A DNA stretch of 64,000 nt from the NCBI GenBank assembly GCA_947184155.2, contig CAMXCT020001693.1:1-64000 (forward strand). Reading direction: 5' to 3'. Below, piece after piece: positions 29,301 through 64,000 of this stretch. How positions within the stretch are numbered: position 1 is the first letter of the stretch; every line of letters starts with the position of its first letter. The position numbers and the translations under genes were made by a program. Under the pieces are notes generated by a model. That model had not been told where the DNA came from. It did no database searches and saw nothing but the letters and a program-made list of their open reading frames with translations. The stretch is from Cladocopium goreaui. Lineage: Eukaryota; Sar; Dinophyceae; Suessiales; Symbiodiniaceae.

Positions 29301-31800
29301 GAAACCGATAGAAAATGATGCTTTTAGCTTCTTTTTCCTCTTGCTGCTGCTATGAATTTTGGCTACCTTTTACATCCGTTCCCCAAATGGGAACACACCT
29401 GGTTCCCAAATGGGAAAACACCATGGAAAAAATCACCTCCCGGCAGCAAAACACCATGCGTCTGAAGGACGGAGAAGCCCCAAAATTGCACCTCGAAAAT
29501 GCCTAACGTAACTTCTGAAACCGATAGAAAATGATGCTTTTGGCTCCTTTTTCCTCTTGCTGCTGCTATGAATTTTGGCAACCTTTACATCCGGTCCCGA
29601 AATGGGAAAACACGATGGAAAAAATCACCTCCCGGCAGCAAAACACCATGCCTCTAAAGGACGGAGAAGCCCCAAAATTGCACCTCGAAAATGCCTAACG
29701 TAACTTCTGAAACCGATAGAAAATGATGCTTTTAGCTTCTTTTTCCTCTTGCTGCTGCTATGAATTTTGGCTACCTTTTACATCCGTTCCCCAAATGGGA
29801 ACACACCTGGTTCCCAAATGGGAAAACACCATGGAAAAAATCACCTCCCGGCAGCAAAACACTATGCCTCTGAAGGACGGAGAAGCCCCAAAATTGCACC
29901 TCGAAAATGCCTAACGTAACTTCTGAAACCGATAGAAAATGGCTTTGAAGAAGATTCTGTCGCTTGCAGCTGCTCGCAGGACTGGTGGCGACGGTTGCTG
30001 CTGCTGATGCCGGTAAAACAGCTTCGAAAAAAGCAGCCCCTGGCAGCAAAACACCATGGCTCTGAAGGACGAGCAAGGTCGAAAGATTCTGTTACCTGCT
30101 GCTGCTCGCAGAACTGGTGGCGGCGGCTGCTGCTGCTGATGCCGGTAAAACAGCTTCGAAAAAAGCAGCTCCCGGCAGCAAAACACCATGGCTCGGACGG
30201 ACGAGCAAGGTCCAAAACCACGCGAAAAAACTCCCTAACGTGTCGTCTGGAAATCTAGAAAAACAGCATTTGTCGACAGATCGACAGATTCTGTTGCCTG
30301 CGGCTGCTCGCAGAACTGGTGGCGGCGGCTGCTGCTGCTGATGCCGGTAAAACAGCTTCGAAAAAAGCAGCTCCCGGCAGCAAAACACCATGGCTCTGAA
30401 GGACGAGCAAGGTCCAAAACCACGCGAAAAAACTCCCTAACGTGTCGTCTGAAATCCTAGAAAAAAAGCATTTGTCGATTGTCGAGAGAGATTGTCGAGA
30501 GAGAGATTGTCGAGAGCTCGAAAATGCCTAACGTAACGTCTGAAACCGATAGAAAATGATGCTTTTAGCTTCTTTTTCCTCTTGCTGCTGCTATGAATTT
30601 TGGCTACCTTTTACATCCGTTCCCCAAATGGGAACACACCTGGTTCCCAAATGGGAAAACACCATGGAAAAAATCACCTCCCGGCAGCAAAACACCATGC
30701 CTCTGAAGGACGGAGAAGCCCCAAAATTGCACCTCGAAAATGCCTAACGTAACTTCTGAAACCGATAGAAAATGATGCTTTTGGCTCCTTTTTCCTCTTG
30801 CTGCTGCTATGAATGTTGGCAACCTTTACATCCGGTCCCGAAATGGGAAAACACGATGGAAAAAATCACCTCCCGGCAGCAAAACACCATGCCTCTAAAG
30901 GACGGAGAAGCCCCAAAATTGCACCTCGAAAATGCCTAACGTAACTTCTGAAACCGATAGAAAATGATGCTTTTAGCTTCTTTTTCCTCTTGCTGCTGCT
31001 ATGAATTTTGGCTACCTTTTACATCCGTTCCCCAAATGGGAACACACCTGGTTCCCAAATGGGAAAACACCATGGAAAAAATCACCTCCCGGCAGCAAAA
31101 CACTATGCCTCTGAAGGACGGAGAAGCCCCAAAATTGCACCTCGAAAATGCCTAACGTAACTTCTGAAACCGATAGAAAATAGAAAATGATGCTTTTGGC
31201 TCCTTTTTCCTCTTGCTGCTGCTATGACTTTTGGCCACCTTTACATCCGGTCCCCAAATGGGAAAACACCATGGAAAAAATCACCTCCCGGCAGCAAAAC
31301 ACCATGCCTCTGAAGGACGGAGAAGCCCCAAAATTGCACCCCGAAAATGCCTAACGTAACTTCTGAAACCGATAGAAAATGATGCTTTTGGCTCCTTTTT
31401 CCTCTTGCTGCTGCTATGAATTTTGGCCACCTTTACATCCGGTCCCCAAATGGGAAAACACGATGGAAAAAATCACCTCCCGGCAGCAAAACACCATGCC
31501 TCTGAAGGACGGAGAAGCCCCAAAATTGCGCCCCCAAAATGCCTAACGTAACTTCTGAGACCCATAGAAAATGATGATTTTGGCTACTTTTTCCTCTTGC
31601 TGCTGCTATGAATTTTGGCTACCTTTTCCTGCTGCTGCAGAAGCTTTTGCTACTGCTGCTGCTGTTCCCCGGATTGGAAAACACAATGGCAGTGAAGGAC
31701 GGAGAAGCTCCAAAACTACACCCCGAAAATGCCTAACGTAACTTCTGAAACCAATAGAAAATGATGATTTTGGTTGCTTTTTCCTCTTGCTGCTTTTCAA
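26300..31800 (+). repeat. Tandem array D with interleaved C blocks, MPLKDGEAPKL core
   Basis: D units (~190-210 bp) carry CGGCAGCAAAACACCATGCC, the frame MPLKDGEAPKLHLENA and stop (16 codons), TAACGTAACTTCTGAAACCG, ATAGAAAATGATGC and a CTTGCTGCTGCTATGAATTT stretch. Many units also keep a second frame from ATGATGCTTTTAGC onward. C and D blocks alternate in larger near-identical modules; the landmark GATTGTCGAGAGAGAGATTG occurs near 26,270, 27,930, 29,250 and 30,500. The last units (31,600-31,900) are degenerate: MAVKDGEAPKLHPENA, then MAVKDEEATNHEPKK without a stop. Confidence 0.88.
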
Positions 31801-38445: not shown

Positions 38446-38450
38446 ACATC
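38446..38450. repeat. Target-site duplication, left (ACATC)
   Basis: ACATC precedes the 5' LTR and is repeated at 51,044-51,048 after the 3' LTR; 5 bp is the usual length for copia integrases. Confidence 0.9.
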
Positions 38451-38620
38451 TGTATTTGCATCCCACATAAAACATAGCTGTATCATAGTATGCTTACTAG
38501 CATTGCGGCTCAGGTAAAAAGTAGCTTGTGCGCCGCTAGCTTAACGGTATTTGTCCCTTTTAGGTTTATCAGTCCATTTGGGTATAACTAGGTTAACCCT
38601 TGCTGAAACCTGAAAATACA
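38451..38620 (+). repeat. 5' LTR, 170 bp
   Basis: Starts TGTATTTGCATCCCACATAA and ends ACCTGAAAATACA. Unusually short for an LTR of such a long element. It must contain the promoter; no TATA box is obvious. The copy at 50,874 is identical as far as I can read. Confidence 0.95.
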
Positions 38621-38647
38621 GGTTATCAGCCGTAGTCTCTTAAAGCC
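38621..38647 (+). promoter_or_regulatory. Leader and presumed primer-binding site
   Basis: Only 27 bp separate the LTR from the ATG. The first bases, GGTTATCAGCCG, should prime minus-strand synthesis. They do not show the TGG start expected for a tRNA 3' CCA end. Their complement resembles an anticodon arm (CGGCTGATAACC), as for copia elements primed by tRNA halves. This is a suggestion only. An in-frame TAG at 38,633 supports the start at 38,648. Confidence 0.45.
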
Positions 38648-41600
38648 ATGGAAAGGACAACTGGAGACACCTCCGGTGGAGGCGCCCTTGTCCCCTCGTC
38701 TGGAGCAACGGTTGCAACAACTGGATCACAACAAAGCTTGCCGGCTGGGACAAACCCCACGCCCATGTCAGTGGATGAAGGTTTCTTCACACAGCCCGTG
38801 CAAGCATATTTCCAGTTCGTGCAAAACAATCTTACCTACATCAACGAAGGTAACATTGATGCTTTCAGGCAAGAGGCGGAGGAGAGGCACACACATCTCA
38901 TGGAGCAAAAGGTCCAGCAACTGTACCAAGAGTTTGAGGGAGTTTGCCTTAGCGAAATTGCCCATCAACGTGCAGAAGCGGATCGCAGACATGAACACCT
39001 AGTGTCAGAGTATTCAGTGTCCCAAACGGCAGCTGAGCATGAGGTAGCAAAACTGAGACAGGAACTTAGCGATGCAAACGCAAAGCTAAAGAACGCTGCA
39101 AATGCGGTTGCACTGGAAGCTGAACAAAGAGCCAACCAAAAGGTAGCCCATATTACAGCCCAGTACGAACAAAGGTTTTCTGAACTCAGAGGTAGCCTCG
39201 AGGCAGACTGTAAACGAATCGTGGACGAAACAGTGGAGTATGCAAAGAATGGCATGGAAGGTTTCAAGAAGGAGGAACAAGCTGTAATTCAGGAGATTAG
39301 AGAGGAATGCAGTAGGCAGGAAAACCAAGCTGCTGAACTCAATTTCCAATTGCAGGGACAAGTCGAGGATTTGATGGAGAAGCTCAATAAGTACAGCGCC
39401 CCGGAAATCAGTGTCGACAGAGCCGTCGAAGTTGATGATGCACAAGGCGGTAATAATGTCGATTTGTACATGACCCCAAAATCAGCGGTCGGTACCAAGG
39501 CTGGAGCAGAACCCATGCCAAACACTGGTATGAGTAGCTTAGCCATGGACGCTAAGGAAAGGTTGAGCAACCTGTTCTCAACAACCCCTGCCGGATCAGC
39601 AGCCCCTCCAAAACTTCCACCATTGCCAGTTCAAAGACAAAATGATGATGATGCAAACCAAGATCATAGTGTGCCCAGTCCTACAGTCATAGCAAGCGAC
39701 CCTGGCAAGAAAGCAGCTGAAGCAGGCTTAGGTCTTTCAGGTCAACAATTGCTAGATCTCATCACTAGACTGACTTCAAAGGATTCAGATGGTGAAAAGC
39801 CCCGAACAAAAGAGGCAGAGACTATCAAACTGAATGACATGCCTGCCCCAGAAGCTTATCGTCACTGGCGTAATCATGTCAGGGATGAAGTGAAATCGTG
39901 CTCCGACAAACCCGATGAGGCTTGGCTTTGGCTCAATGAAGTCTTTGACAACAAAACCCCTAGGGAAAAGTTGGAGGAAAAGCTGCAGGATCCTGGGAAG
40001 TTTATCACACTTGACACCAAACTGTCGGCAGCGTTAACTCGCTCAGCCAAAGGTGATTTAGCGACAAAGATCCATAACTTCAAAGATGAGAAGTCAAAGA
40101 ATGGGATCCAAGTCAGAGGTAGGAGAGTCCTTTTGATGTTTGAAGATTACTTCAGGACGTCTGAGGAAGCTGGCAGTCTCTACCGCGTCGAGGACCTACT
40201 TGGAGTCGTTCGCGCTGGAGAATCTGTGGAGGACCTTAGAAGGTTTCTTAACCGATGGGACGCCACAATTGCCGGCATGGAAACCCCACCAGATGATTTG
40301 GTTCTCAGAGACATCTTACTTAGACAAATCCGAAAATGTCAATTGATGAAGTATGACATTGAAGCATTTGACAGAGCTCCTGAAAAGTCAGAACAAAAGT
40401 CTTATGCATTCTTGTTGAGAAACATTCGTGACCTTTTGGATAGAGAAAGACTCCGTTCAAACAGAAACAGAATCGTTGAAAAGAACAAGCAGACCGAAAA
40501 GCCTCAGCCCGCTGCACCCGCTCAGGGGGGCAAAGATCGCGGCAAAGGAAAGGGCGACCGAGGTCGAACCCGTGGCCGTAGCCAGAGTGGAAAAGGGGAC
40601 AAGATATGCTACAAATTCAGGGATGGCAAATGTGAAAAGGGTAAAGACTGTCCCTACAAGCATGTCAAAGATTCCTCAAGATCTGGTACCCCCAAAAGAA
40701 AGGGTAAGGGCAAAGGTGGTAGCAGAAGTGGTTCCCCCAACAGAAAGTCGAAGGAAGAGATGGCCAAGATCCCATGCACTTACTTCCAACAGGGCAAATG
40801 TCGTCGTGGTGACAAATGTTTTTACAAACATGAAGTTGCAGCTGCACCCACAAAGGATCCAAAACGCACCAATAGCCCTGCACCAAAGAAGAAGGCCAGT
40901 GCAAAAGCTGCGCCATGCATTACTCAAAGGTATGCATGCATAGCAAAGGGAAAAGGGTTGCCAAAAGCCACAAAGGCCATGAAAGAACAATGCCATAGAG
41001 CTGTTGTGTTTTCATCAAAAGTGGAATACATCAAAGTTCCAGCAACAGGTGAACAGAGGAAGGTAGTGCACAAACCCCGAATCTATGAGAAGACGTTCCC
41101 AGATTCAGAGTCAGTGCCAAAACCCGACAAACTCGTAGCTCACCGTGCTCAGGTTTCGGCCCGACAGTTGCAGGAACTTGTGAAGCTCTTCGGCAGTGAG
41201 ACGCAGCCCAAGTGCCGATTCCGATGCAATGACCCAGAAGGGGGAGTATCATGCAACCACTGTAGAGCAATGATCGGTCCCAAGAACAAAGTCAGTAACA
41301 CTCATTTGCCCACTGTTGCTACACCTGCATCAAAAGATGGATGTGTTTGGTTGGTTGACACGGGCAGTGAACAGGATTTGATCAGTGAGGGTATGCTGAA
41401 GACCGCAAAGGCGACAAACCGCCGTATCAGCGATACTCCGATCAGCCTTGCTACAGCAAACGGTTCGACACGGGCGGATGAGGTGGCCGACGTAAAAGTC
41501 GATGCCCTACATCAGCCGTTTTCACCATACATTCTTGAGGAAACTCCTGCTGTTCTTTCGGTTGGGGTCAGGTGTATGGAACAGGGTTACAGTTTTGTGT

Positions 41601-44600
41601 GGCCAGCTGATGGTAGGCCTTACTTCATTCGTCCGGACATGGGAGTCATTGAGCTTAACGTAGACGGCCGTGTGCCGGTCATCGATAGCTCTTGTCGTGT
41701 TTTGAACAGTGGACAGTTCAAGAAAGATTGTGATCTGTTACGTCTTTTTGCAATGGTTGCTGCGAAAGCAGAAGGTGCCGATGAAGAAGGTGTGGATGAG
41801 GGAGTAGCCCATGATAGTGAAACCGAATACATCAGGTCTAGAAAGGCATCTGACCTTGAGCAAGAGGCATGCAGTAAGTCTCACCAGTTTTGCCATTACC
41901 CCAAGAATCCATTTTGCAAGATCTGTCAGAAGGCGCGCATGATGGCGCCACCCGCAAAGAAGAAAGGGGGACAGAAAAGGTTGGAAACCAAAAGTTTTGG
42001 GGATCACATTGTCGCTGACCATACTGTAATCAAATCCAATGTGGAAGAAGGCGTCAAAGGTGAAACAGTGGCATTGGTGATGAAGGACATTCACACTCAG
42101 TTCAGACACGTCTATCCAAGTCAGACAAAATCGAGTGAATCATGTGTTAATGCTTTCAACCACTTCTTATCTCACAAGGATGAAGTTGGGGCAGTTTACA
42201 CTGACAATTCACGAGAGCTTATTGCTACAATTTCAGAGTTGGGGTACAGACATCAAACATCAACAGAGTACGTGGACAGTTCAAAGTCGTTTGTGGAGAG
42301 GGAGATCAGGCACATGCTTGAAGGCACACGCACAAACCTCGTGCAGTCAGGTCTTCCATTGCAGTATTGGCCGATGGCTATGCAGCATTTCTCCATGGCA
42401 GTGAATGCCACGCCACAGCTCAACGGTGATGATGCCCCATGGAAACTCAGATTCGAAGAAGATTTTCCAGGTCAGTTGATTCCTTTCGGTGCAAAGATAC
42501 TGTTTTGGAACAATCCAAAAAGGGTTGACAACACATCTGGAAAGACATCACCAACAGCAAATGATGGAATCTTTTTGGGATACCACATTCAACCTGGTTT
42601 TGCATGGAAGGGTGAGTATCTTGTTGCCAAGTTAGAAGCATTGGATTACCATGCAGAAATGGGCAGCATCACAGTGCAGCGAGCACGACGTGTTGAGCTC
42701 ATCGCGGGAGGTTTTGTCTTCCCACTCCGTGCACTGAAAGAGGCCAAAGAGCCCAAGCCGGACCGCCTAGTCGACAACGTCATTGCTGATCCTCGTCCGA
42801 TTCCGTTTCAATCCGAATTGCAAACCGAGGAACATGTAGAAGAAAGTGAAGCAGCAATTGACAAGTCAACGGAGGCAGTGCTTGACGCACTTGCCAGTGA
42901 TGAAAGGCCGGCTGAAGAACCAGTTTTTCCTGATATCAAGTACACTCCAACTGGTACTCCAATCCCGGATGGTTATCATTGGGACGGCACACGCCTTGTG
43001 AAAACGTACAAAGGGTCAAAACGCCCTGAGTCGATCCCATCGGATTTTTGGAAAATGCTTAGTCCGAAGGATAGGCAAAAGCTTGTTGAGGAGGAGGCTG
43101 AAAAGATGGCTATAGGCAGCGGTGGTGCCGCATCAAGTTCAGCATCAAAGGGTCCGAAGAAGAAGAAAGGTGCAGTCGCTACTGCAAGAAAGCTTCGGGT
43201 AAACCCTAGCCCCTCAGGTGAGCCTAGTGTGTCAACATGGGAGGTCATTCCACAGGATAGACCGAAATTTTGTGTCCCTGCAATGCCGAAAGCAGTTCCA
43301 GCAAAACCTGAACTGCATCGCCCGGAATTGAGAGAGATGATCAAGAACAAGATCGCAGAGTTGGAATTCAAAATGGCTCTTGAATTGTTTTCTGCTGTTG
43401 CACGTTTGGTTCCCAAAGATGAGGTTAGGAAAAACCCCAAAGCAAAGGCTGCCTTAGATAAGGAGTGGGAGAACCTCAGGACAAAAGGAGTATGGGACGA
43501 ATCCAGAGTCAGGGAATGTAAAAGCATTGTTGAGGAAGCCCGCAAGAAAGGGGAAACTGTACATCTTGGTCGTATTTTTGAAGCCTGCTACGAAAAAGGG
43601 TCGGAACTTCCAGCTGATGATCCTCGTAGGAAATTCAAGGGCCGTACAGTCTTCCAGGGTAACAATGTCCGCGACCAGGATTCTGACCATGCGTTGTTTG
43701 CCGAGTTAGGTAGCAGTCCTGCTTCGATGGAAGCTGCAAAGCTTCTTGACGCGTTTGGTTCTCAGCCCGGATTTTCAAAAGCTCAGGCGGACGCCATTCA
43801 AGCTTACATCCAGGCCCTCTTCACTGGGGTGCCCACATGGCTATCATTGCCACGGAACAGATGGCCAGAACACTGGGAAAAGCAATTCTGGCAACCCATG
43901 GTTCCTTTGGTTTTAGCTTTGTACGGGCATCCAGACAGTGGCGGCATTTGGGAAAACCACCTCAACAGCAGAATCGGAAAAGAAGGTTGGAAACAAATTC
44001 TCCCCGACATATGGCAAAGTATTTTCTATCATGCTGAGTACAATTGCATGTTGGTTGTTTACGTGGATGATTTCAAACTCGCAGGTCCTACTGAGAACAT
44101 GGACAAAGCATGGGCAAGTATCAAACGAGCAGTCAACATTGGTGACCCCGAACCCTATGATCGATATTTCGGTTGTCAACATGTGGAGTTTAACAATGTT
44201 ACACTACCACGAAAAGCTCATCCTTTTGCACATGTTTTTGACTCTCAGGCGGCTGCTGCGGCACGTACACAACATCGAACAAATGATTTTTGGCAACATG
44301 ACCCCTTCAACAAAACTTGGACAAGGTATCATCTCCAGCCACGGAAGAAGTTGTTCGAGCCTGGCGATGAGGGGGGGGAGTTTGTCAAGTCTTTACATTC
44401 AGAACGGGTTACAATGTTCGACAAAAATGTTGAATTTAAAGGTCTCCCAGTTCTCAACATGCACATGTCAGATGAAAGTTCAGCTATTGTTGAAGATGAC
44501 ATGACAGTGGATCAAAAGATTCAGACAAAGGACTTCTGGACAGGAAGGACAATCTTCAGGTATGGTGACGAGTATGGCAACACTAATCAGTTTGCCCTCC

Positions 44601-47600
44601 CATCAAAGAACAGACCCGGTCCGCACAGAGACAAAAGGGAAGCCAAGAATGAGAAGAAATCTCAACGGTTCAAAAGCATTGAGAGTGTCGTTACAAACAA
44701 GTCCGGTTGCATGAACAAACCTGTAAACCTGGTAAGGTACGACATGTCTTCTTTCATGGAATCATGTGTAGATGCATACTGTGAACTGGCAAAGGTTCAG
44801 AAAGATGACTTGCCAGTGGTTGCAACGCCGTTCACAGAAGCGGGAATAGCCCGGCCAACTCTCGATGAGAAGGAGAAGCCAGGGAGGTTGCAACCGATTG
44901 CATCGAAGGTCCTGATGAAGATCCTCTTTGCGGCCCGTATGGCACGCCCAGATCTCTTAAGAGCTACTCAAAGCTTGGCATCTAGGGTGACGAAATGGTC
45001 CATTGAATGCGACATTGCATTGCACAGATTGGTATCATACATCAAGTCAACCAAAGATGTTTTTATGGAGGGTTTTGTGGGAGACTCGTTTGAGGATTGT
45101 CAACTGTGGCTATTTGCAGACGCTGATCATGCGGGGGAACATGATTCAAAATCAACTTCAGGTTGTGCAATGTTCCTTGTGGGGCCAAATACCTATTTCC
45201 CACTAAACGCATTTAGCAAGAAGCAGACAGTTGTAGCAAACTCGTCCACTGAAGCCGAAGTCGTGTCAGCAAATCACGCACTCAGAGCAGAAGGTATTCC
45301 GATGTTGGCATTGTTGGAGCAGTTGGGCATTTTCAAGAAATTGTCGCAGAAGGCTGGGTCAAACCCCAAGCCAAACACCCTCGAACAAAATGATCCTGTT
45401 TTTACTCGTATCGATAAAGAGATCGATGAAATCAGGTATGGCAATGTTGAGGGGGGCCTTTCTGCGGCAAATATCAATGGTTTGAAGGCCCATTTTCCGG
45501 AGTTCTATCAAGTGAAGTTTATGGAAGATAATCAAGCTTCTATCACTGTGATGGGTACCGGTAATTCCTCCACTATGCGCTACGCCAACAAAACTCAGAA
45601 CATCTGCTTTAAATGGATGAAACAGTTGTTCGAAGAAGATCAATTCGATTTGATAAATGTTGGCACCAATTGGCAGACAGCTGACATCCTTACAAAACCT
45701 TTTACTTCCCCAACTAAATGGGAACATGCTTTGAGGTTGATGGCCATTGGAAAGACTTGGATCGACGCCGACAAGCCCAAGGTGCGCCAAGTAGACTCCA
45801 AGCCTGCGTGTCCAGCTAATGTCGATGATCAGGGGGGACGTGATGGTTCAAATTCTTTCCAAAGGATGTTGATTGAGTTTTGCTGTTCATCCGATTCGAA
45901 GCTATGCACTCCACGGCAAGCCAGTAAAGGGTGTAGACTTATCCGAGTAACTGAAAACGAGGATGGCACCACCCAAGGCTGCCGTAAATGGCTAGCCCAA
46001 GAAGTCCAGTCTTTCAGGGAGAGTAATCCAGAGGGTGAGATTTTGCTTTATGCTTCCTTGCCATGTGTGGGTGGCAGTCCATGGGGTTACATCAACAGTT
46101 TGACTGACAAAGGGGCCGAACGAATCGAACAGCAACAAAAGGAATTTACAAAACTTTTCAAATCACTTCAAAAGGTTATCAGTGAAATCGATGGGCCACA
46201 TTTTTCAATTGCATTCGAACTCTCAAAGAACTGCAAGTATTGGAAATGGCCAATGGTTCAATCGTTTTTGAAGAGACAAGAGTTGAAATTGTATCCATTC
46301 CACGGTTGCCAGTTTGGGGTTATTGACTTGGACGGGAATCCCATGAAAAAGGGTTGGATGATTGCAACAAACATGGAAGAGTTGTCAAGTCTATCGGAAT
46401 ACGTTTGTGATGGTTCCCACACTCATGGTCAAAGCCGGGGTACTGCACTGAAGCTTGCAGAGAACTACACATTCAAGTTGACTGACTTCATCCATGATTG
46501 TTTTCGTTCCAGAGCTAACCGGGCACAAACCGCCAAGAACAGGAAAAGGTTAGCTTTGCCCGCCATGAGCCGACGTTCTGAAGATTCAAACTTGTCGATT
46601 GCTGAAAAGATGAACGTGCGGGCTCTCAAGTCGGCCGGTTTAAAGACCGTGCCCCAGCAGAGCAACATGTCGGAGTGGCTTGCTTTTCGGAAGTGCCTTG
46701 ATGTTCAGGGGGATAGGCACGCAGGGTGGGAGGACATCTTTTCTACGATCCTCGCTTCGTCAACCATCCTGGCACAGGGCAACAGAACAGAAGACCTTGA
46801 GTTGGCTGCAGGATTCATGCAGTGTTTTACTGCGCAGTCAATGTCTACGGACGCCCTGACGAACGTGCCGTGGGCAAAGGAGATCCGCCATCTGTCCGAG
46901 TTGGAACATGACTCACTGTGGGATCTGAGCTTGCCTACTGAGTACGTCCCTGGGACATCAAGGCCGGCGGTAGACGTCGTGCCCACCATCTATGTGGTGA
47001 CTTCCGATTCAACTTTGGCTCTGATCACTGGAAAGGGTAAGACTTTGAAGAAGTACACCTTGAAGGAGGATCTGGGATTGCGAAAATCAGACATGGTTCT
47101 CGAAATCGGTCATGACATGCTCTGGGGTAAGGATTTACAACAGCTCTGCAAAGCAAATATTTCCATGATCAAGGAGCTGATGGCAAAATATTCTTCTCAC
47201 GGATCAGCCATCAGGGTTATTTCGGTGATCTTTTGGTCTGGAAATGAAATTTGTGGGGAATATGGTGTTGAACCCCTTCCCATTTGGGGGCAGAGGGAGC
47301 CACAGGGTGACTGGAATGCCATCATGGACAGGGTCAAAGGCAACATTGTTTGGTGGAACAATCAGCTCAAGGAGTTGGGAGTGGATCAGGCCGCCCTAAT
47401 CGGCGAGCCCGACCCGCTCACTTATGGGTTGAGTCTCATCTTCACGACGTTTATTGAACGTCTGAAGGAATGGTTCCACAAGGAGATTGCCAGTGACAAC
47501 GATCGGATTCGGTGGATCAAGAATGACATGCTTCCACCGAGGCTTGAGCTCAGGGACTACTTTCACGCATTCGAGACCGAGCTCAACCGAAGCGAGATGA

Positions 47601-50600
47601 TCGGATATGTCATGGCAACTCTCCACATGCTGCACATGACAGACATTTTGATCCCTCAGTACAACCTGTCTTTGTACAAGCGCAGGCGCCCTGCAGGTGA
47701 GGCCACAATGCGCGATGTCCCGCCTAAGATGGAGCACCTCCCAGTCAGGTTTGTGCAGGTTCTCAACTCTCTCCGGGAGAAGGTGAACAAGCCTGCACCG
47801 AGTGTCTCGACCCCGGAAAGCTTTACAGCGGAGGAGTTGAGGGATCGCCCGACTGATGCTGGTGTCGCCGAAGATGATGATGAGGAAGGCGACCCATGGG
47901 ATGCTCTGGATCCCGATGAGCACGAGGGCCCATCTGTTGGCAAAGCCAAGGCGAGCCACGCAGCTCCGCCTGACCCCAAGGCGAAACCTCAGACGACGCA
48001 GGAGGATTCAACTCAGGCCACCTCAGCTGGTGAGCCCCTGCAAGAAAACGAGATCAAGGGCACCATCATTCCGAAACACGCACTTGGACACCTTGACAAA
48101 TATCGCATCACTTTGGATGAAAACATAAATGCAGAAGTAGTTGAACATTGCGTCGTTGATGCCCATCCCTACGAATTGATCGTCAAAACCTGTTGGGAGA
48201 TGGATGGTGCAAAGGAGCTGAAGTACCCAGATCGCATGGACCGACACAAGACCAAGGTCAATGCAGTGACGCGTGGACAGCCGGGTCAGGACACCTCTGG
48301 ATTTGATGAAAACATGTGGCTTGACCTTGATGACTTCTTTCGAATGTTCAACCAAATGCTGCCAGCCAAGTTGCCCCGAATGACAGTTGAAGAGCTCATC
48401 TCATTGCTCTACTGGGACAACAAGTGCCGTTTTGAGTTCCAGTGCATTGCCGGGTACCAGAAGGCAACCCGTAAAGGGTTAGCCTACTGGCCCATCAGGA
48501 TCCGTGCAGTGCAGGGGCATACGAAACGTGCCATGGATGCCGCTTCAGCTGAGGACACGTTCAATGCAGTGGAAATCTATGCTCTGTCTGGAGCAGCAGC
48601 AATCCAGAAAATGAACGCCAAAGGTAAAAAGATTACCACTCCTCAGATGTGCCCTGGTGTACTTTATCACAGGACTACAAAAGGCAATTGGAAGGGCATC
48701 ATTGAGAATGGCTTCGTGGCTGGAGGAGGAGAACGAAATTCGTCAGGAAGAGCTCACTCCTATTTTAGCGACGTTCGTGTTGATGAGAAAGAGTATGTGA
48801 GTGGTTTGCGTGCTGAGCGACCCATTGAAATCAGGGTTGCAATGGCAGAAGCTGCCAAGGCTGGAATTGTGTTTTTCAGGACGGCTTCTGACGGCATTCT
48901 CACAAGTGATGTCGTCCCGCCACAATACATCATCTCTGTGGACGACACGGCAAAGAAGGTGAATCTTTATCGTCGCCAACAGGAGGTAGCGCAGTCTGCA
49001 GCAAGCAGTGGGGGAGAAGTTGGAGTCCAACAGCTTGCCGAGACCTTTGAGGCCAAGGCATCAAAAAGGACAGGTTCCACATCTCCGGCCGCCTCAACTG
49101 GCGCGCCCACTGCAAAGACATTTTTCCCAGGGAAGGTGAAGCCTCCGCCACCAAATGTGGCCCAACTTGCCAGTATGCCTGGATATGCAAGCAGCAGACT
49201 GTTGCCCCCTCCTCCAAAGGGTGAAGCTCCGAAACCTCCTGAAGCAAAGGTTGAAGGACCGAAGACACCGCCAAAGGTTGAAGGACCAAAGACACCTCCA
49301 AAAACACCACCGAAGGAAGGGACTTCTGCACCTCATGCACCAGAAGTTCCAAAAGCTGTGACCTCAGAAGTTGATGCAGCGGCAAAGGATGAACCTGCAA
49401 AGAAGAAGGCAGCCCTAACAAGCGTGCCAACAGCTGTGCCTGCGGCATCATCTGCTGCGGCCTTCTTGGAGCCTGTTCCAAAAGTTGCACCACCAAAGGC
49501 AGTGCAGAAAGATCCGAAAGCTCCAGTTGCAGGGTCACCCAAAAAGACGCCAGCAGCAACGTCAAAGTCACTGGTGCCAAAGCAGAAGTCTCGCCCTAAA
49601 GGCGATGACCAACCTTCAAAGAAAGAGGTGAAGAAGGAGGACAAGAAGCCGGTGCCGGTCAAGATCGAAGTCACGCAATGTTCAAGATGTTTTGCACAGA
49701 CTTTCAAGGGACAGATTGAATGCGATGTGTGTGGATTGATGCTCGAAGGGATCAACAAGGCCGACCGAACCAAGATTGCAGAACGTAGGAAGGCCGCCCT
49801 TCACAAGCTGGGCTTGTACTATGATTTTCGTGGTGAGTACCTGCAGAGCATCACACACGATCAGCTTGAATCTTTGGGTTTGTTGGACGACCAGGCAAGG
49901 GGAAGCTCAAGTCCGGAAGCCGGCCTATTGGCAAGGGCCAAGAGTCGCTTTGACCGTGCCTTGAGTTTAGGTTATGTGTCTGTGGCTGACAGGTTTGCCC
50001 AGGACGCCACATTCGCAGAGAGCGTGTTGAACGAAGGGGAGAACGAGTACGATTGTGAAAGGTACGACCTCCTCAAGTCTGCACATTTGCCAAAGCCGGG
50101 TCGCACCAAAGCTCAGGTCAAGATGGGTATTTCTGAGCAATCCCAGCTGGAGCACAACGCAATGAGGCTGGTTTACTTGGATTTGGCCAGTCGCTATGAT
50201 GTCCCAAAGTCTTTCAGGTACATCGACCAGCCATGGTTCTACATGTACCGAACCGAGATTTACTCCGAAGAAGAGTACATTGACTACCTCAACAGGAATC
50301 CTGGACACAATCTTTTGTTGTCTTGCACTGGTGTTGACAACATTGCTGTTCATGATGCTGAACGCCATTTGAGGTGGATTAAGGGACAAAATGAAGAGCT
50401 GTACAAGCAGAACGCAGCAGAGAAGAAGAAACAGTCTGACAGGGCCCGCGAACAAAATGAGGCCAAGCGCAAAGCTGAGCAGACTGGTGCGTATGGCCAA
50501 GGTCCCTCCAAGAAAGGCACCGCCAAACCGGTTGCCCGAACATCCACAAGCGTAGAGGTAGCTTCATCATCAACGTCAGCAAGTCAGTGGCTCAATCGCC

Positions 50601-50716
50601 CTCAGCAAAGTCATTCCCAAGATGATCGACAGTTCACCAATGAGTGGCAGAAGTGGCATGGGCGCTGGTACCAAAAGGTTATCAGGCATGGCCGTGTCGA
50701 ATGGGAAGAGGGATAA
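38648..50716 (+). CDS. Copia gag-pol polyprotein with extra C-terminal domains, 4022 aa
   Basis: Domains in order: coiled coil (~50-265); capsid-like Gag (~395-620); two CCCH fingers, C-x7-C-x5-C-x3-H, at 654-672 and 710-728, where copia usually has a CCHC knuckle; aspartic protease DTGS (904-907); integrase HHCC (H1079, H1083, C1090, C1093) and catalytic D1124, D1186, E1217; reverse transcriptase ~1575-1880 with DAIQAYIQA, ALYGHPDSGG and YVDD (1805-1808); RNase H D2158/D2160, E2202, D2294 and ADILTKP. Then come a methyltransferase-like segment (~2407-2590), a possible SGNH-like segment (~2770-3000), a Pro/Ala/Lys-rich linker, a Tpt1/KptA-like domain (~3190-3440), a second Pro/Lys-rich linker, a zinc ribbon (C3678, C3681, C3692, C3695) and a charged tail. 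There is no frameshift between gag and pol. The start is fixed by the upstream TAG. Confidence 0.93.
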   Translation: MERTTGDTSGGGALVPSSGATVATTGSQQSLPAGTNPTPMSVDEGFFTQPVQAYFQFVQNNLTYINEGNIDAFRQEAEERHTHLMEQKVQQLYQEFEGVCLSEIAHQRAEADRRHEHLVSEYSVSQTAAEHEVAKLRQELSDANAKLKNAANAVALEAEQRANQKVAHITAQYEQRFSELRGSLEADCKRIVDETVEYAKNGMEGFKKEEQAVIQEIREECSRQENQAAELNFQLQGQVEDLMEKLNKYSAPEISVDRAVEVDDAQGGNNVDLYMTPKSAVGTKAGAEPMPNTGMSSLAMDAKERLSNLFSTTPAGSAAPPKLPPLPVQRQNDDDANQDHSVPSPTVIASDPGKKAAEAGLGLSGQQLLDLITRLTSKDSDGEKPRTKEAETIKLNDMPAPEAYRHWRNHVRDEVKSCSDKPDEAWLWLNEVFDNKTPREKLEEKLQDPGKFITLDTKLSAALTRSAKGDLATKIHNFKDEKSKNGIQVRGRRVLLMFEDYFRTSEEAGSLYRVEDLLGVVRAGESVEDLRRFLNRWDATIAGMETPPDDLVLRDILLRQIRKCQLMKYDIEAFDRAPEKSEQKSYAFLLRNIRDLLDRERLRSNRNRIVEKNKQTEKPQPAAPAQGGKDRGKGKGDRGRTRGRSQSGKGDKICYKFRDGKCEKGKDCPYKHVKDSSRSGTPKRKGKGKGGSRSGSPNRKSKEEMAKIPCTYFQQGKCRRGDKCFYKHEVAAAPTKDPKRTNSPAPKKKASAKAAPCITQRYACIAKGKGLPKATKAMKEQCHRAVVFSSKVEYIKVPATGEQRKVVHKPRIYEKTFPDSESVPKPDKLVAHRAQVSARQLQELVKLFGSETQPKCRFRCNDPEGGVSCNHCRAMIGPKNKVSNTHLPTVATPASKDGCVWLVDTGSEQDLISEGMLKTAKATNRRISDTPISLATANGSTRADEVADVKVDALHQPFSPYILEETPAVLSVGVRCMEQGYSFVWPADGRPYFIRPDMGVIELNVDGRVPVIDSSCRVLNSGQFKKDCDLLRLFAMVAAKAEGADEEGVDEGVAHDSETEYIRSRKASDLEQEACSKSHQFCHYPKNPFCKICQKARMMAPPAKKKGGQKRLETKSFGDHIVADHTVIKSNVEEGVKGETVALVMKDIHTQFRHVYPSQTKSSESCVNAFNHFLSHKDEVGAVYTDNSRELIATISELGYRHQTSTEYVDSSKSFVEREIRHMLEGTRTNLVQSGLPLQYWPMAMQHFSMAVNATPQLNGDDAPWKLRFEEDFPGQLIPFGAKILFWNNPKRVDNTSGKTSPTANDGIFLGYHIQPGFAWKGEYLVAKLEALDYHAEMGSITVQRARRVELIAGGFVFPLRALKEAKEPKPDRLVDNVIADPRPIPFQSELQTEEHVEESEAAIDKSTEAVLDALASDERPAEEPVFPDIKYTPTGTPIPDGYHWDGTRLVKTYKGSKRPESIPSDFWKMLSPKDRQKLVEEEAEKMAIGSGGAASSSASKGPKKKKGAVATARKLRVNPSPSGEPSVSTWEVIPQDRPKFCVPAMPKAVPAKPELHRPELREMIKNKIAELEFKMALELFSAVARLVPKDEVRKNPKAKAALDKEWENLRTKGVWDESRVRECKSIVEEARKKGETVHLGRIFEACYEKGSELPADDPRRKFKGRTVFQGNNVRDQDSDHALFAELGSSPASMEAAKLLDAFGSQPGFSKAQADAIQAYIQALFTGVPTWLSLPRNRWPEHWEKQFWQPMVPLVLALYGHPDSGGIWENHLNSRIGKEGWKQILPDIWQSIFYHAEYNCMLVVYVDDFKLAGPTENMDKAWASIKRAVNIGDPEPYDRYFGCQHVEFNNVTLPRKAHPFAHVFDSQAAAAARTQHRTNDFWQHDPFNKTWTRYHLQPRKKLFEPGDEGGEFVKSLHSERVTMFDKNVEFKGLPVLNMHMSDESSAIVEDDMTVDQKIQTKDFWTGRTIFRYGDEYGNTNQFALPSKNRPGPHRDKREAKNEKKSQRFKSIESVVTNKSGCMNKPVNLVRYDMSSFMESCVDAYCELAKVQKDDLPVVATPFTEAGIARPTLDEKEKPGRLQPIASKVLMKILFAARMARPDLLRATQSLASRVTKWSIECDIALHRLVSYIKSTKDVFMEGFVGDSFEDCQLWLFADADHAGEHDSKSTSGCAMFLVGPNTYFPLNAFSKKQTVVANSSTEAEVVSANHALRAEGIPMLALLEQLGIFKKLSQKAGSNPKPNTLEQNDPVFTRIDKEIDEIRYGNVEGGLSAANINGLKAHFPEFYQVKFMEDNQASITVMGTGNSSTMRYANKTQNICFKWMKQLFEEDQFDLINVGTNWQTADILTKPFTSPTKWEHALRLMAIGKTWIDADKPKVRQVDSKPACPANVDDQGGRDGSNSFQRMLIEFCCSSDSKLCTPRQASKGCRLIRVTENEDGTTQGCRKWLAQEVQSFRESNPEGEILLYASLPCVGGSPWGYINSLTDKGAERIEQQQKEFTKLFKSLQKVISEIDGPHFSIAFELSKNCKYWKWPMVQSFLKRQELKLYPFHGCQFGVIDLDGNPMKKGWMIATNMEELSSLSEYVCDGSHTHGQSRGTALKLAENYTFKLTDFIHDCFRSRANRAQTAKNRKRLALPAMSRRSEDSNLSIAEKMNVRALKSAGLKTVPQQSNMSEWLAFRKCLDVQGDRHAGWEDIFSTILASSTILAQGNRTEDLELAAGFMQCFTAQSMSTDALTNVPWAKEIRHLSELEHDSLWDLSLPTEYVPGTSRPAVDVVPTIYVVTSDSTLALITGKGKTLKKYTLKEDLGLRKSDMVLEIGHDMLWGKDLQQLCKANISMIKELMAKYSSHGSAIRVISVIFWSGNEICGEYGVEPLPIWGQREPQGDWNAIMDRVKGNIVWWNNQLKELGVDQAALIGEPDPLTYGLSLIFTTFIERLKEWFHKEIASDNDRIRWIKNDMLPPRLELRDYFHAFETELNRSEMIGYVMATLHMLHMTDILIPQYNLSLYKRRRPAGEATMRDVPPKMEHLPVRFVQVLNSLREKVNKPAPSVSTPESFTAEELRDRPTDAGVAEDDDEEGDPWDALDPDEHEGPSVGKAKASHAAPPDPKAKPQTTQEDSTQATSAGEPLQENEIKGTIIPKHALGHLDKYRITLDENINAEVVEHCVVDAHPYELIVKTCWEMDGAKELKYPDRMDRHKTKVNAVTRGQPGQDTSGFDENMWLDLDDFFRMFNQMLPAKLPRMTVEELISLLYWDNKCRFEFQCIAGYQKATRKGLAYWPIRIRAVQGHTKRAMDAASAEDTFNAVEIYALSGAAAIQKMNAKGKKITTPQMCPGVLYHRTTKGNWKGIIENGFVAGGGERNSSGRAHSYFSDVRVDEKEYVSGLRAERPIEIRVAMAEAAKAGIVFFRTASDGILTSDVVPPQYIISVDDTAKKVNLYRRQQEVAQSAASSGGEVGVQQLAETFEAKASKRTGSTSPAASTGAPTAKTFFPGKVKPPPPNVAQLASMPGYASSRLLPPPPKGEAPKPPEAKVEGPKTPPKVEGPKTPPKTPPKEGTSAPHAPEVPKAVTSEVDAAAKDEPAKKKAALTSVPTAVPAASSAAAFLEPVPKVAPPKAVQKDPKAPVAGSPKKTPAATSKSLVPKQKSRPKGDDQPSKKEVKKEDKKPVPVKIEVTQCSRCFAQTFKGQIECDVCGLMLEGINKADRTKIAERRKAALHKLGLYYDFRGEYLQSITHDQLESLGLLDDQARGSSSPEAGLLARAKSRFDRALSLGYVSVADRFAQDATFAESVLNEGENEYDCERYDLLKSAHLPKPGRTKAQVKMGISEQSQLEHNAMRLVYLDLASRYDVPKSFRYIDQPWFYMYRTEIYSEEEYIDYLNRNPGHNLLLSCTGVDNIAVHDAERHLRWIKGQNEELYKQNAAEKKKQSDRAREQNEAKRKAEQTGAYGQGPSKKGTAKPVARTSTSVEVASSSTSASQWLNRPQQSHSQDDRQFTNEWQKWHGRWYQKVIRHGRVEWEEG
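45866..46420 (+). other. Methyltransferase-like domain in the polyprotein (residues ~2407-2590)
   Basis: IEFCCSSDSKLC (2409-2420) resembles a glycine-poor SAM motif I. LYASLPCVGGSPW (P2472, C2473) resembles the Pro-Cys motif IV of cytosine-5 DNA methyltransferases. FELSKNCKYWKWP and FHGCQFG follow. Dinoflagellate retrotransposons that captured DNA methyltransferases are known, which makes this plausible. However, the usual ENV motif and target-recognition order are not evident, so the enzyme class and activity are open. Confidence 0.4.
48215..48960 (+). other. Tpt1/KptA-like RNA 2'-phosphotransferase domain (residues ~3190-3440)
   Basis: The segment follows the Tpt1/KptA family in order. DRHK (R3199, H3200) corresponds to the LRH motif; WLDLDDFFRMF to the winged-helix segment; CRFEF to the KRF motif; IRAVQGH (R3286, H3291) to IRANQGH; LYHRT (H3341) to the HGT motif; GIVFFRTASDGILTSDVVPP (R3411) to the FFRS.NGV.LT..VPP end. 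The four catalytic residues Arg-His-Arg-Arg are all present. Family members use NAD+ to remove an RNA 2'-phosphate, mainly at tRNA splice junctions; some ADP-ribosylate nucleic-acid ends. A retrotransposon use is unknown. Confidence 0.7.
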
Positions 50717-50873: not shown

Positions 50874-51043
50874 TGTATTTGCATCCCACATAAAACATAG
50901 CTGTATCATAGTATGCTTACTAGCATTGCGGCTCAGGTAAAAAGTAGCTTGTGCGCCGCTAGCTTAACGGTATTTGTCCCTTTTAGGTTTATCAGTCCAT
51001 TTGGGTATAACTAGGTTAACCCTTGCTGAAACCTGAAAATACA
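50874..51043 (+). repeat. 3' LTR, 170 bp
   Basis: Same sequence as the 5' LTR by direct reading, TGTATTTGCA to GAAAATACA. Confidence 0.95.
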
Positions 51044-51048
51044 ACATC
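51044..51048. repeat. Target-site duplication, right (ACATC)
   Basis: Repeats the five bases before the 5' LTR. It runs into a CAT microsatellite. Confidence 0.9.
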
Positions 51049-59339: not shown

Positions 59340-60205
59340 TTAATCCAACCCTCAACAGACTTTCAACAGACCCTAAACCAACCTCAAATAACCCTAAATA
59401 GCACCAAATAACCCTAACTAAACCATAAACCAACACTAAATACCCTAAATAAACCTTGAACCAACCCTAAAGAAACCCTAAACCAACCCGACATAACCAA
59501 CCCTAAATTCACCCTAAACCAACCCTAAACCACACCTAAATGACCCTACTAACCATAAACCAACCTTATAAAAAACCCTAAACCAACACCAAATAGACCT
59601 TAAATAATAAACCCTAAACCATCCCTAAATAAACCCTAAACCAACACCAAATAGACCTTAAATAATAAACCCTAAACCATCCGTAAATAAACCCTAAACC
59701 AACCATAAATAAACCCTAAACCAACCCTAAATAAATCCTAAATAAACCTTGAACCAACCCTCAACCAACCCTAAACCAAACCTAAATGACCCTAAACCAA
59801 CCATAAACCAACCCTAAATAAACCCTAAACCAGCCCTAAATAAGTCTAAGCCAACCCTAAATAACCCTAAATAAACCCTAAACCAACCCTAAATAAACCC
59901 TAAACCAACCCTAAATAACGCTAAATAAACTCTAAACCAACTTTAAATCAACCTTAAACCAACCCTAAATGAGTCTAAACCATCCCTAAATAACTCTGTA
60001 TAAACCCTAAACCAACCCTAAATAAACCCTAAACCAGCCCTAAATAACTCTGTATAAACCCTAAACCAACACTAAATAAACCTTAAACCAACCCTAAACC
60101 AACCCTAAATAAACCCTAAACCAACCCTAAACCAACCCTAAACCAATCCTAAATGACTCTAAACCAACCCTAAACCAACCCTAAATAAACCCTAACCAAC
60201 CAACA
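59340..60205. repeat. Telomere-like CCCTAAA minisatellite, 11-bp units
   Basis: About 0.86 kb of CCCTAAACCAA and CCCTAAATAAA units with decay toward both ends. CCCTAAA is the TTTAGGG-type telomere heptamer, here locked into 11-bp units with CCAA or TAAA. It lies upstream of a host exon, so it is interstitial. Confidence 0.88.
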
Positions 60206-60789: not shown

Positions 60790-61995
60790 GTTACCAGTCT
60801 GCAGTGTGGAGTGGAAAGTGTAGAGTGTGGAGTGTGGAGTGTGAAGTAAGGAGTGTGAAGTAAGGAGTGTGGAGTGTAAAGTGTGGAGTGGGGAGTGTAG
60901 AGTGTGTAAAGTGTAGAATGCGGAGTGTAAAGTGTAGAGTGTGGAGTATGGAGTGTAAAGTGTAGAGTGTGGAGTGTAGAGTGTGGAGTGTGGAGTGTAG
61001 AGTGTGGAGTGAGGAGTGTAAAGTGCAGTGTGGAGTGTGGAGTGTAAAGTGAGGAGTGTGAAGTGGAGTGTAAAGTGTGGAGTGAGGAGAGTGTAAAGTG
61101 TAGAGTGTGGAGTGTAGAGTGTGGAGTGTAAAGTGTGTAGAGTGTGAGGAGTGTAAGTGTGGAGTGAGTGTGGAGTGTGTGTAAAGTGTGGAGTGTAAAG
61201 TGTGGAGTGAGGAGTGTAAAGTGGAAATCGTGGAGTGTAAAGTGTAAAGTGTGGAGTGTAGAGTGTATAGTGTAGAGTGTAAAGTGTAGAGTGTGGAGTG
61301 TGGAGTGTGTAAAGTGTGGAGTGTAAAGTGTGTGGAGTGTAAAGTGTGGAGTGTGGAGTGTAAAGTGTGGAGTGTGGAGTGAGGAGTGTAAAGTGTGGAG
61401 TGTGGAGTGTAAAGTGTGGAGTGAGTGTAGTGTGGAGTGTGTGTGGAGTGTGGAGGAGTGTAAAGTGTGGAGTGTAAAGTGTGGAGTGAGAGTGTAAAGT
61501 GTGGAGTGAGGAGTGTAAAGTGTGGAGTGTGTGGAGTGTAAAGTGAGGAGTGTAAAGTGTGGAGTGAGGAGTGTAAAGTGTGGAGTGTGGAGTGTGGAGC
61601 GTAAAGTGTAGAGTGTGGAGTCTGGAGTGGAAAGTGTAGAGTGTGGTGTGTAGAGTGTGGAGTGTAAAGTGTGGAGTGTAAAGTGTGGAGTGAGGAGTGT
61701 AAAGTGTGGAGTGAGGAGTGTAAAGTGTGGAGTGTGGAGTGTTGAGTGGAAAGTGTGGAGTGCGAAGTGTGGAGTGTAAAGTGTGGAGTGAGGAGTGTAA
61801 AGTGTGGGGTGTGGAGTGAGGAGTGTAAAGTGTGGAGTGTAAAGTGTGGAGTGTGGAGTGAGGAGTGTAAAGTGTGGAGTGTGGAGTGTGGAGCGTAAAG
61901 TGTAGAGTGTGGAGTCTGGAGTGGAAAGTGTAGAGTGTGGTGTGTAGAGTGTGGAGTGTGGAGTGTAAAGTGAGGAGTGTGGAGTGTGGAGTGAG
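60790..61995. repeat. GTGTGGAGTGTAAA satellite
   Basis: About 1.2 kb of GTGTGGA, GTGTAAA, GTGAGGA and GTGTAGA variants on a 7-10 bp rhythm. Because neither unit creates a stop on the minus strand, all three minus frames are open for over 450 codons each (Thr-Leu-His-Thr-Pro-His-Ser type). I treat these as non-coding. Confidence 0.92.
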
Positions 61996-64000
61996 GAAAG
62001 TGCCACGCTTGCCACGCAAAACGACATGACAACCTGCTTGGAAACCTTCGAAAAGGAGAGATTTTGCGGCTTCCCCCATAGACACGACGAACGCCACAGG
62101 AAAAACCAGAGACCCGAGACGAGACGCATGGATGCAGAAAAACGAGCATTTCGTGCGAGACTTCCTCCAATTTTGACATTTTCAACACGTTAGCAAACAG
62201 CTTGGAATGTCACAAAGTGCCACGCCTGCCACGCAAAACGACATGACAACCTGCTTGGACACATTCGAATAGGAGAGGTTTTGCGGCTTCCCCCATAGAC
62301 ACGGCGAAACCACAGGAAAACCAGAGACTCGAGACGAGACACGTGGGAGCACCAAAACGAGCATTTCGTGCGAGACGTCCTCCAATTTTCACACTTTGAA
62401 ACATGCCGAAGAGACATGTTTTGCAGCTTCCCCCATAGACACGGCGAAGCCACCATAAAACCAATGACGCGAGACGAGACAGGTGGAAGCACCAAAACGA
62501 GCATTTCGTGCGAGACGTCCTCGAATTTTCACACTTTGTAGCTTCAAGACGTTTTCCTACGAGTTTTCCTTAGAACCTGAAAATTTGCAACCTCAAAATC
62601 GATGTTTCGTGCGAGGCGTCCGTCAATTTTCAGCACATCGCACAAAATGCCACGCCTGCCACGGAACTTGCACCTCGTCGCCACTTGACGCAGCCCTGCC
62701 AATGCGATTTACAAAAAACACGCAACAGGACACGTCTAAAGTGCTGCGCCTGCCACGAAAAATGACGATGGACACGTCCAAAGTGCTGCGCCTGCCACGA
62801 AAACTGCAACACATCTTGCGAAAACGTCGCAGAAGTATTGCGCCTGCCACACAAAACGACTTTCGACATGTTACAAAACACCTCTGAATGTCACGAAGTG
62901 CCACGCCTGCCACGCGAAACGAAGCAACCCGACGTCTGAAACCTCCAAAAATGATCCCTCCTGCAGAACTTCCCATAGGCACGGCCATATGGTCCTCGCA
63001 CGGACGGTTGCGGACGGTTGCGAACGGTTGCGGACCGTGAACGCAACGTCGAGCGAACACACCCTCAACCCCCAGACCCCCAGAGTGAAACGGGAACCCT
63101 TGCTACGCATTCGGGAAAAACGAGCATTTCGTGCGAGGCTTCCTCCAATACTGATATTTTCCACACGTTATCAAACAGGTTGGAATGTCACAAAGTGCCA
63201 CGCCTGCCACGCAAAACGACAGGACAACCTGCTTGGAAACATTCGAAAAGGACATGTTTTCCAGCTTCCCCCATAGACACGGCGACGCCACAGGAAAACC
63301 AGAGACTCGAAACGAGACACATGGGCGCAAAAAAACGAGCATTTCGTGCGAGGCTTCTTCAAATTTCCAATATTGATATTTTCCACACGTTATCAAACAG
63401 GTTGGAATGTCACAAAGTGCCACGCCTGCCACGCAAAACGACAGGACAACCTGCTTGGAAACATTCGAAAAGGACATGTTTTCCAGCTTCCCCCATAGAC
63501 ACGGCGACGCCACAGGAAAACCAGCGACTCGAGACAAGACACGTGGATGCAGAAAAACGAGCATTTCGTAGGAGACTTCCTCCAATTTTGACATTTTTGA
63601 CACATTATCAAACAGGTTGGAATGTCACAAAGCGCCACGCCTGCCACGCAAAACGACATGACAACTTCCTTGGAAACCTTCGAAAAGGAGAGGTTTTGCG
63701 GCTTCCCCCATAGACAGGGCGAAGCCACAGGAAAACCAGAGACTCGAGACGAGACACGTGGGAGCACCAAAACGATCGAGACGAGACACGTCTTGCGCAC
63801 CAAAACGAACATTTCGTAGGAGACTTCCTCCCAGTTTGGCACTTTGCAGCTTCAAAATCGACGTTTTCCTACGAGTTTTCCTTAGAACCTGAAAATTTGC
63901 AACCTCAAAATCGATGTTTCGTGCGAGGCGTCCGTCAATTTTCAGCACATCGCACAAAATGCCACGCCTGCCACGGAATTTGCACCTTGTCACCACTTGA
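61996..64000. repeat. ~220-bp tandem family with ~1.3-kb higher order
   Basis: Units carry AAGTGCCACGCCTGCCACGC, CTTCCCCCATAGACACGGCG and ACGAGCATTTCGTGCGAG. Unit starts near 63,183, 63,404 and 63,620 are 221 and 216 bp apart. A block beginning TTTTCCTACGAGTTTTCCTT recurs almost unchanged at about 62,552 and 63,864, giving a 1.3-kb higher order. The array runs off the right edge. No gene is supported, although open frames occur. Confidence 0.85.

Follow-up and report, generated by a model that had tools for sequence, protein, structure and literature searches.

What does an RNA 2'-phosphotransferase domain do inside the polyprotein of a long terminal repeat (LTR) retrotransposon? The question is raised by a copia-type element of the dinoflagellate Cladocopium goreaui, located in the window analysed here, i.e. 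the whole stretch of 64,000 nt from the start of contig CAMXCT020001693.1 (assembly GCA_947184155.2, forward strand). The initial annotation described a single open reading frame (ORF) of 4022 codons, which we found at 38648-50716, and, in frame within its copia-type gag-pol product, a Tpt1/KptA-like domain at 48215..48960. The position of this domain is right, with the end lying slightly further (48967), and the strings quoted in its support (DRH, RFEF, IRAVQGH, LYHRT and FFR..DGILTSDVVPP) are all present in the translation. Residues ~3191-3440 are a Tpt1/KptA homologue, i.e. a divergent member of PF01885 that is conserved in a copia-type element family. As regards its role, we see a roughly even chance that this altered domain would bind NAD+ and a phosphorylated nucleic-acid end, transferring ADP-ribose or removing phosphate there.

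Homology of the domain to Tpt1/KptA

PF01885 matched the full ORF with an E value of 2.6e-11 (44.3 bits, cut-off 26) and the domain alone with 1.2e-13, and profile-profile alignment (hhalign) to Tpt1/KptA gave a probability of 99.5%. In an AlphaFold2 (AF2) model with a predicted local distance difference test score (pLDDT) of 81.7, the input alignment of which included canonical Tpt1s, a winged-helix RNA lobe and an ADP-ribosyltransferase (ART)-type NAD lobe are both present, and both match mammalian TRPT1; a prediction from six element sequences alone was uninformative (pLDDT 30.7). The family profile also scored above its cut-off in the relatives P0003, P0006, P0009, P0018 and P0041 (28.9 bits in the last), and below it in P0027 (25.3 bits) and P0062 (18.8 bits), while the NCBIfam KptA equivalog models matched far under their thresholds, with 31 bits at best (cut-off 239). 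Neither of the outcomes that the initial annotation named as contrary to its claim, i.e. the lack of a profile or structure match and confinement of the domain to this copy, was encountered, given the PF01885 and fold matches and the many relatives.

The domain thus shares with Tpt1, KptA and TRPT1 the two-lobe fold and the KxR, QGH, H-x-T, GRxH and GxR motifs. It differs from them by an insert of ~35 residues between QGH and HRT, by its place in a polyprotein of 4022 residues and by changes in the active site, where Gly stands for one His and HRT mostly for HGT. Its features are as follows, with equivalent residues given for the Clostridium enzyme (Cth):

48218..48967, + strand: Tpt1/KptA-like domain, RNA lobe and NAD lobe, residues ~3191-3440 (PF01885, hhalign, AF2 model and fold matches)
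48272..48277, + strand: R3209-G3210, opposite the Arg-His pair of Tpt1, with Gly for His (alignments)
48422..48430, + strand: K3259 and R3261, equivalent to Cth Lys66 and Arg68 (alignments)
48668..48676, + strand: H3341-R3342-T3343, equivalent to HGT of Tpt1 (alignments)
48746..48757, + strand: G3367-R3368-A-H3370, with R3368 equivalent to Cth Arg121 (alignments)
48809..48811, + strand: R3388, equivalent to Cth Arg139, which holds NAD phosphates (alignments)

The altered active site

The tetrad of Cth consists of Arg18, His19, Arg68 and Arg121, and Lys66, His101, Thr103 and Arg139 are reported to contact ligands likewise (PMC6333775). The register was set by three methods, i.e. profile alignment, MAFFT alignment (62 sequences) and a gapless scan of column scores, which agree in pairing R3209-G3210 with the Arg-His of Tpt1. 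R3209, G3210, R3261 and R3368 are the counterparts of the tetrad, with one of the four positions changed. The spacing of 15 residues from the Arg-His or Arg-Gly pair to the next aromatic is kept, and the Arg-Gly register was the best one in all six element sequences scanned, an equal score being reached in 0 to 6 of 1000 shuffles.

The initial annotation had instead taken R3199, H3200, R3286 and R3411 for an intact catalytic set, a claim that does not stand, as these residues are not the tetrad. Its Arg-His candidate, DRH, was rejected because the aligned pair follows ten residues further downstream and because family members vary at 3199-3200 (RH in 14 of 54 rows, DF in 13, DH in 9, DY in 6, others in the rest). 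R3286, in IRAVQGH, is Arg in 70 of 75 rows, yet occupies no tetrad position, and R3411 is Arg in 31 of 53 rows and Lys in 19.

In all 55 readable rows of the family, Gly takes the place of the tetrad His (RG in 54, CG in one), these rows being match segments that are not independent, with many near copies or fragments among them. Bacterial KptAs, in contrast, have RH and HGT in 80/80 each, counted in the best 80 of 404 loci, a control set that leans canonical because the loci were found with a canonical alignment. At the corresponding NAD-lobe motif, 47 of 62 rows of the element family read HRT and two read HGT. R3261 stands in a KCR, KSR or KAR context in 58/67 rows and R3368 in GRAH in 48/55, the Arg itself being present in 52. 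Since one of the four residues needed by the normal enzyme is replaced, the domain is probably not an ordinary Tpt1.

Retention among relatives and possible function

Successive protein searches listed 2, 6 and 97 proteins (labelled P0002 etc.), and the survey was confined to relatives of the element that have the domain. They span 97% to about 30% identity, lower in some fragments, e.g. P0002 with 97% (in a cluster of 371 member sequences), P0003 with 83%, P0006 with 61% (175 cluster members) and P0009 with 33%. Domain and reverse transcriptase (RT) are found in one chain in P0002, P0003 and P0006, and in P0008 the chain with the domain includes the last part of RNase H. P0103, one of the 97, is an ordinary Tpt1 (PF01885 E 2.1e-54); the remaining proteins, among the matches listed, carry motifs of the element family, and many of them are fragments. 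Fusion to RT was seen in lineages down to ~61% identity, more distant ones showing the C-terminal context alone: in P0009 the flanks are conserved, with 22.9% identity (E 6e-13) at the end of an upstream region, extension B, and 28% (E 5e-34) in the C-terminal part with the zinc ribbon. Scans of IMG/VR confirmed no relative. Odd gene models or fragments are frequent, e.g. P0005, P0027 and P0035; beside its element-type segment, P0027 holds in residues 1-90 a second, different Tpt1-like one (IRAVQGHNKT...YHSC), which perhaps comes from another element family.

In a phylogenetic tree, ten element rows were separated by one branch from 22 canonical rows with a support of 100/100, the bootstrap being not fully settled. 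The two groups are ~8 changes per column apart and P0103 is the only eukaryote-type Tpt1 included, so the tree does not point to a donor.

Evidence for function is given by the pattern of conservation. Of 261 positions, 74 are invariant in six sequences reaching down to 35% identity, among them all seven of the ligand-contacting residues chosen, i.e. the equivalents of Cth Arg18, Lys66, Arg68, His101, Thr103, Arg121 and Arg139 (hypergeometric p 1.2e-4, and 7.4e-5 when the background is limited to R/K/H/T positions, for residues picked after the alignment was seen and sequences of which four are >80% alike). G3210 and R3342 are invariant in the same six sequences. The domain core is also more similar than the flanking linkers, both in P0003 (84.6% identity vs 71.2 and 67.6) and in P0006 (60.8% vs 47.5 and 41.4). 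Together, the invariant contacts and the excess over the linkers argue for a function of the domain and for its having been kept across diverged copies. The initial annotation had based this point on an intact catalytic set in an element with identical LTRs. Such LTRs are indeed found (38451-38620 and 50874-51043) but speak for a young insertion rather than for selection of the domain; conservation across the family is the better evidence.

The explanation we favour is that a Tpt1-type domain, with its winged-helix RNA lobe and ADP-ribosyltransferase NAD lobe, was added to the C-terminal extension of a copia-type polyprotein and persisted there as the element families diverged. By alignment, the residues holding NAD+ and the RNA 2'-phosphate in Tpt1 are kept, whereas the His contacting only the junction 3'-phosphate has become a fixed Gly and HGT mostly HRT. 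In the reading that we consider the likeliest, NAD+ and a phosphorylated nucleic-acid end would still be bound for ADP-ribose transfer or phosphate removal at that end, presumably on element RNA, cDNA or primer inside the particle, in place of tRNA splice junctions.

The loss of the His allows two readings, i.e. an enzyme acting on a substrate without a junction 3'-phosphate, such as an end of RNA or DNA, or a domain retired from catalysis that only binds, and we lean narrowly to the enzyme because the residues holding NAD+ and the 2'-phosphate remain. His19 of Cth is described as touching solely the splice-junction 3'-phosphate, and in Runella Tpt1 the His mutant slows step 2 threefold, compared with 210- and 710-fold for two Arg mutants (PMC6333775); canonical TRPT1 and KptA are reported to act on terminal phosphates (PMC6582358, PMC9458441). 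Several points weigh against an enzymatic role, in addition to the choice of the seven contacts after alignment and the closeness of four of the six sequences. Published work regards the tetrad as indispensable for 2'-phosphotransfer (PMC6333775, PMC6582358), and the matching His-to-Ala change in human TRPT1, H41A, is reported to abolish ADP-ribosylation of 5'-phosphate RNA (PMC6582358); the loss of the His may therefore mean no catalysis. With HRT in place of HGT, a large residue comes to lie next to the NAD site, the Cth contacts Ser10-Lys11, Phe107 and Arg140 are not kept according to the profile alignment, and site residues are missing in some rows (P0007 is without the HRT-GRAH stretch, P0014 without GR, and P0012 has Ser for R3261). 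Moreover, the core is less conserved than RT/RNase H (84.6% vs ~95% in P0003, 60.8% vs ~85% in P0006). The uniform Gly, the prevalence of HRT and the inactivity of H41A would suit a non-catalytic module that binds RNA phosphate, perhaps also NAD+, or has a structural part in the polyprotein; this has a considerable chance of being correct, though one clearly short of even, as seven invariant side chains contacting NAD or phosphate go beyond the needs of a scaffold.

Other explanations fare worse. An ordinary, active Tpt1, removing 2'-phosphates for instance from tRNA-half primers, could be expected from the homology and from the sequence after the 5' LTR, which by our reading resembles the complement of an anticodon arm, but is improbable with an incomplete tetrad. 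The many fragments and odd gene models among the relatives might also point to a functionless passenger, or to a chimera of assembly or gene model; against this, 4022 codons are open between identical LTRs, the domain is joined to RT in P0003 and P0006, and its C-terminal flanks are conserved in P0009, which leaves very little room for such an origin. That the domain belongs to a different ADP-ribosyltransferase family merely resembling Tpt1 is scarcely credible; other ART families ranked lower among the structure matches, a ranking not used as a membership test. In the fullest form of the enzymatic reading, to which we give a chance a little under even, a long-lived LTR retrotransposon lineage would encode its own NAD+-dependent nucleic-acid-end enzyme, i.e. 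a relative of Tpt1 in which Arg-Gly-Arg-Arg is fixed and the splice-junction 3'-phosphate contact lost, and which would act on RNA or cDNA ends during replication, e.g. by capping them or clearing terminal phosphates.

The element, its surroundings and comparable systems

The LTRs are 170 bp each, with TG...CA ends and ACATC on both flanks as a 5-bp duplication. The polyprotein runs from gag through protease, integrase, RT (YVDD) and RNase H to ~1,600 further residues that hold the Tpt1-like domain. With the integrase, as placed by motif reading, ahead of RT, this is the copia order. The remaining features are:

38446..38450, no strand: target-site duplication ACATC, left copy, flanking the 5' LTR
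38451..38620, + strand: 5' LTR, 170 bp, TGTAT...ATACA, identical to the 3' LTR
38621..38637, + strand: primer-binding-site-like GGTTATCAGCCGTAGTC directly after the 5' LTR (sequence reading)
38648..50716, + strand: gag-pol ORF, single, 4022 codons (ORF and translation)
40607..40831, + strand: two gag CCCH zinc fingers, residues ~654-728 (PF18044 and Torus matches; motif positions)
41345..41371, + strand: aspartic protease motif VDTGSE (gag-asp_proteas match below cut-off; motif position)
41882..42316, + strand: integrase region, zinc-binding motif, then YTDN and FVERE (motif reading only)
43628..45706, + strand: RT (YVDD at 44060) and RNase H (FADADHAG at 45113, LTKPFT at 45689) (RVT_2 below cut-off; motifs)
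45863..46522, + strand: extension A, conserved (sequence comparison; outside the known families searched)
46970..47665, + strand: core of extension B, conserved (sequence comparison; outside the known families searched)
49679..49738, + strand: zinc ribbon CxxC...CxxC (motif; similar in P0009 and P0077)
50874..51043, + strand: 3' LTR, 170 bp, identical to the 5' LTR, purine tract GAGGGGGG just before
51044..51048, no strand: target-site duplication ACATC, right copy, merging into a CATCATCAT repeat (right flank)

RVT_2 was the sole RT family listed for the ORF, with an E value of 0.011 that is below cut-off (as is that of P0003, E 0.0024); the RT fragment 44000-45860 matched no Pfam family, the RT region gave nothing useful against PDB (best E 1.6) and the integrase region had no Pfam integrase match. 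The gag fingers are of the CCCH type instead of CCHC knuckles, and the zinc ribbon follows a proline-rich linker. Extension A, which follows RNase H over ~220 residues and is 80% identical in P0006, matched nothing in Pfam up to E 10 and nothing in PDB better than E 0.44; its LPCVGGSPW and FELSKNC strings may resemble cytosine-methyltransferase motifs. The core of extension B, likewise without a Pfam match up to E 10, carries TSDS...GHDML, which may resemble SGNH-hydrolase blocks. Priming by tRNA halves is known from copia elements, and the complement of GGTTATCAGCCGTAGTC resembles, by our reading, a tRNA anticodon arm with GAU; no tRNA gene was found in the window for comparison with 38621-38637, and the literature located on tRNA halves had no bearing on the priming of this element. 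A spliced-leader relic pattern had 0 matches.

Elsewhere in the window, an array of AACCCTAAACC-type units at 59410-60201 is akin to interstitial (CCCTAAA)n telomere repeats, and ~170 degenerate 7-bp AGTGTGG units with a strong G skew occupy 60803-61997, where they probably account for three overlapping minus-strand ORFs. Further large arrays, satellite-like and with repeat units of some 100-400 bp, lie at 10641-12282, 15825-20575 and 24948-31794.

The element resembles Ty1/copia elements (Pseudoviridae) in its gag-protease-integrase-RT-RNase H order, 5-bp duplication and TG...CA LTRs, and differs from them by the CCCH gag fingers and the ~1,600 additional C-terminal residues with the Tpt1-like domain. 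KptA domains embedded in polyproteins have been described for positive-strand RNA viruses, i.e. Beihai picorna-like virus and Botrylloides leachii nidovirus (PMC9503650), and our model matched 1ab of the latter (E 6.5e-5) and the nonstructural protein of Melipona quadrifasciata virus 1a (E 1.7e-7). In both settings a Tpt1-like domain lies within the polyprotein of an RNA-copying element, but the carriers given in PMC9503650, the main text of which has no word starting with 'retrotranspos', are positive-strand RNA viruses, whereas the present host is an LTR retroelement. Retrotransposons of dinoflagellates and charophytes are also reported to have captured a DNA methyltransferase (DNMT), again a host-type nucleic-acid-modifying enzyme taken into a retrotransposon coding region (PMC5890265). 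The enzyme there is a different one, however, and the Symbiodinium Copia superfamily is given in that paper as being without any DNMT domain; 'phosphotransferase' is absent from its main text and from those of the dinoflagellate genome papers PMC8045281 and PMC11453091. Our literature search covered no bioRxiv preprints and only a minority of subscription papers; among the matches it listed, no title or abstract start pointed to Tpt1/KptA or PF01885 as part of a retrotransposon or of a dinoflagellate element. That a retroelement takes up a nucleic-acid enzyme is a known kind of event, of which the altered Tpt1 domain is a new case.

Tpt1 occurs in bacteria and mammals and is described as non-essential there (PMC6333775), so its job in these organisms is unclear. 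An element that keeps the Tpt1 fold and the residues for NAD and phosphate while fixing a change in the tetrad is a natural experiment on what this fold is capable of, and may make NAD+/ADP-ribose chemistry accessible to study in the replication of retroelements.
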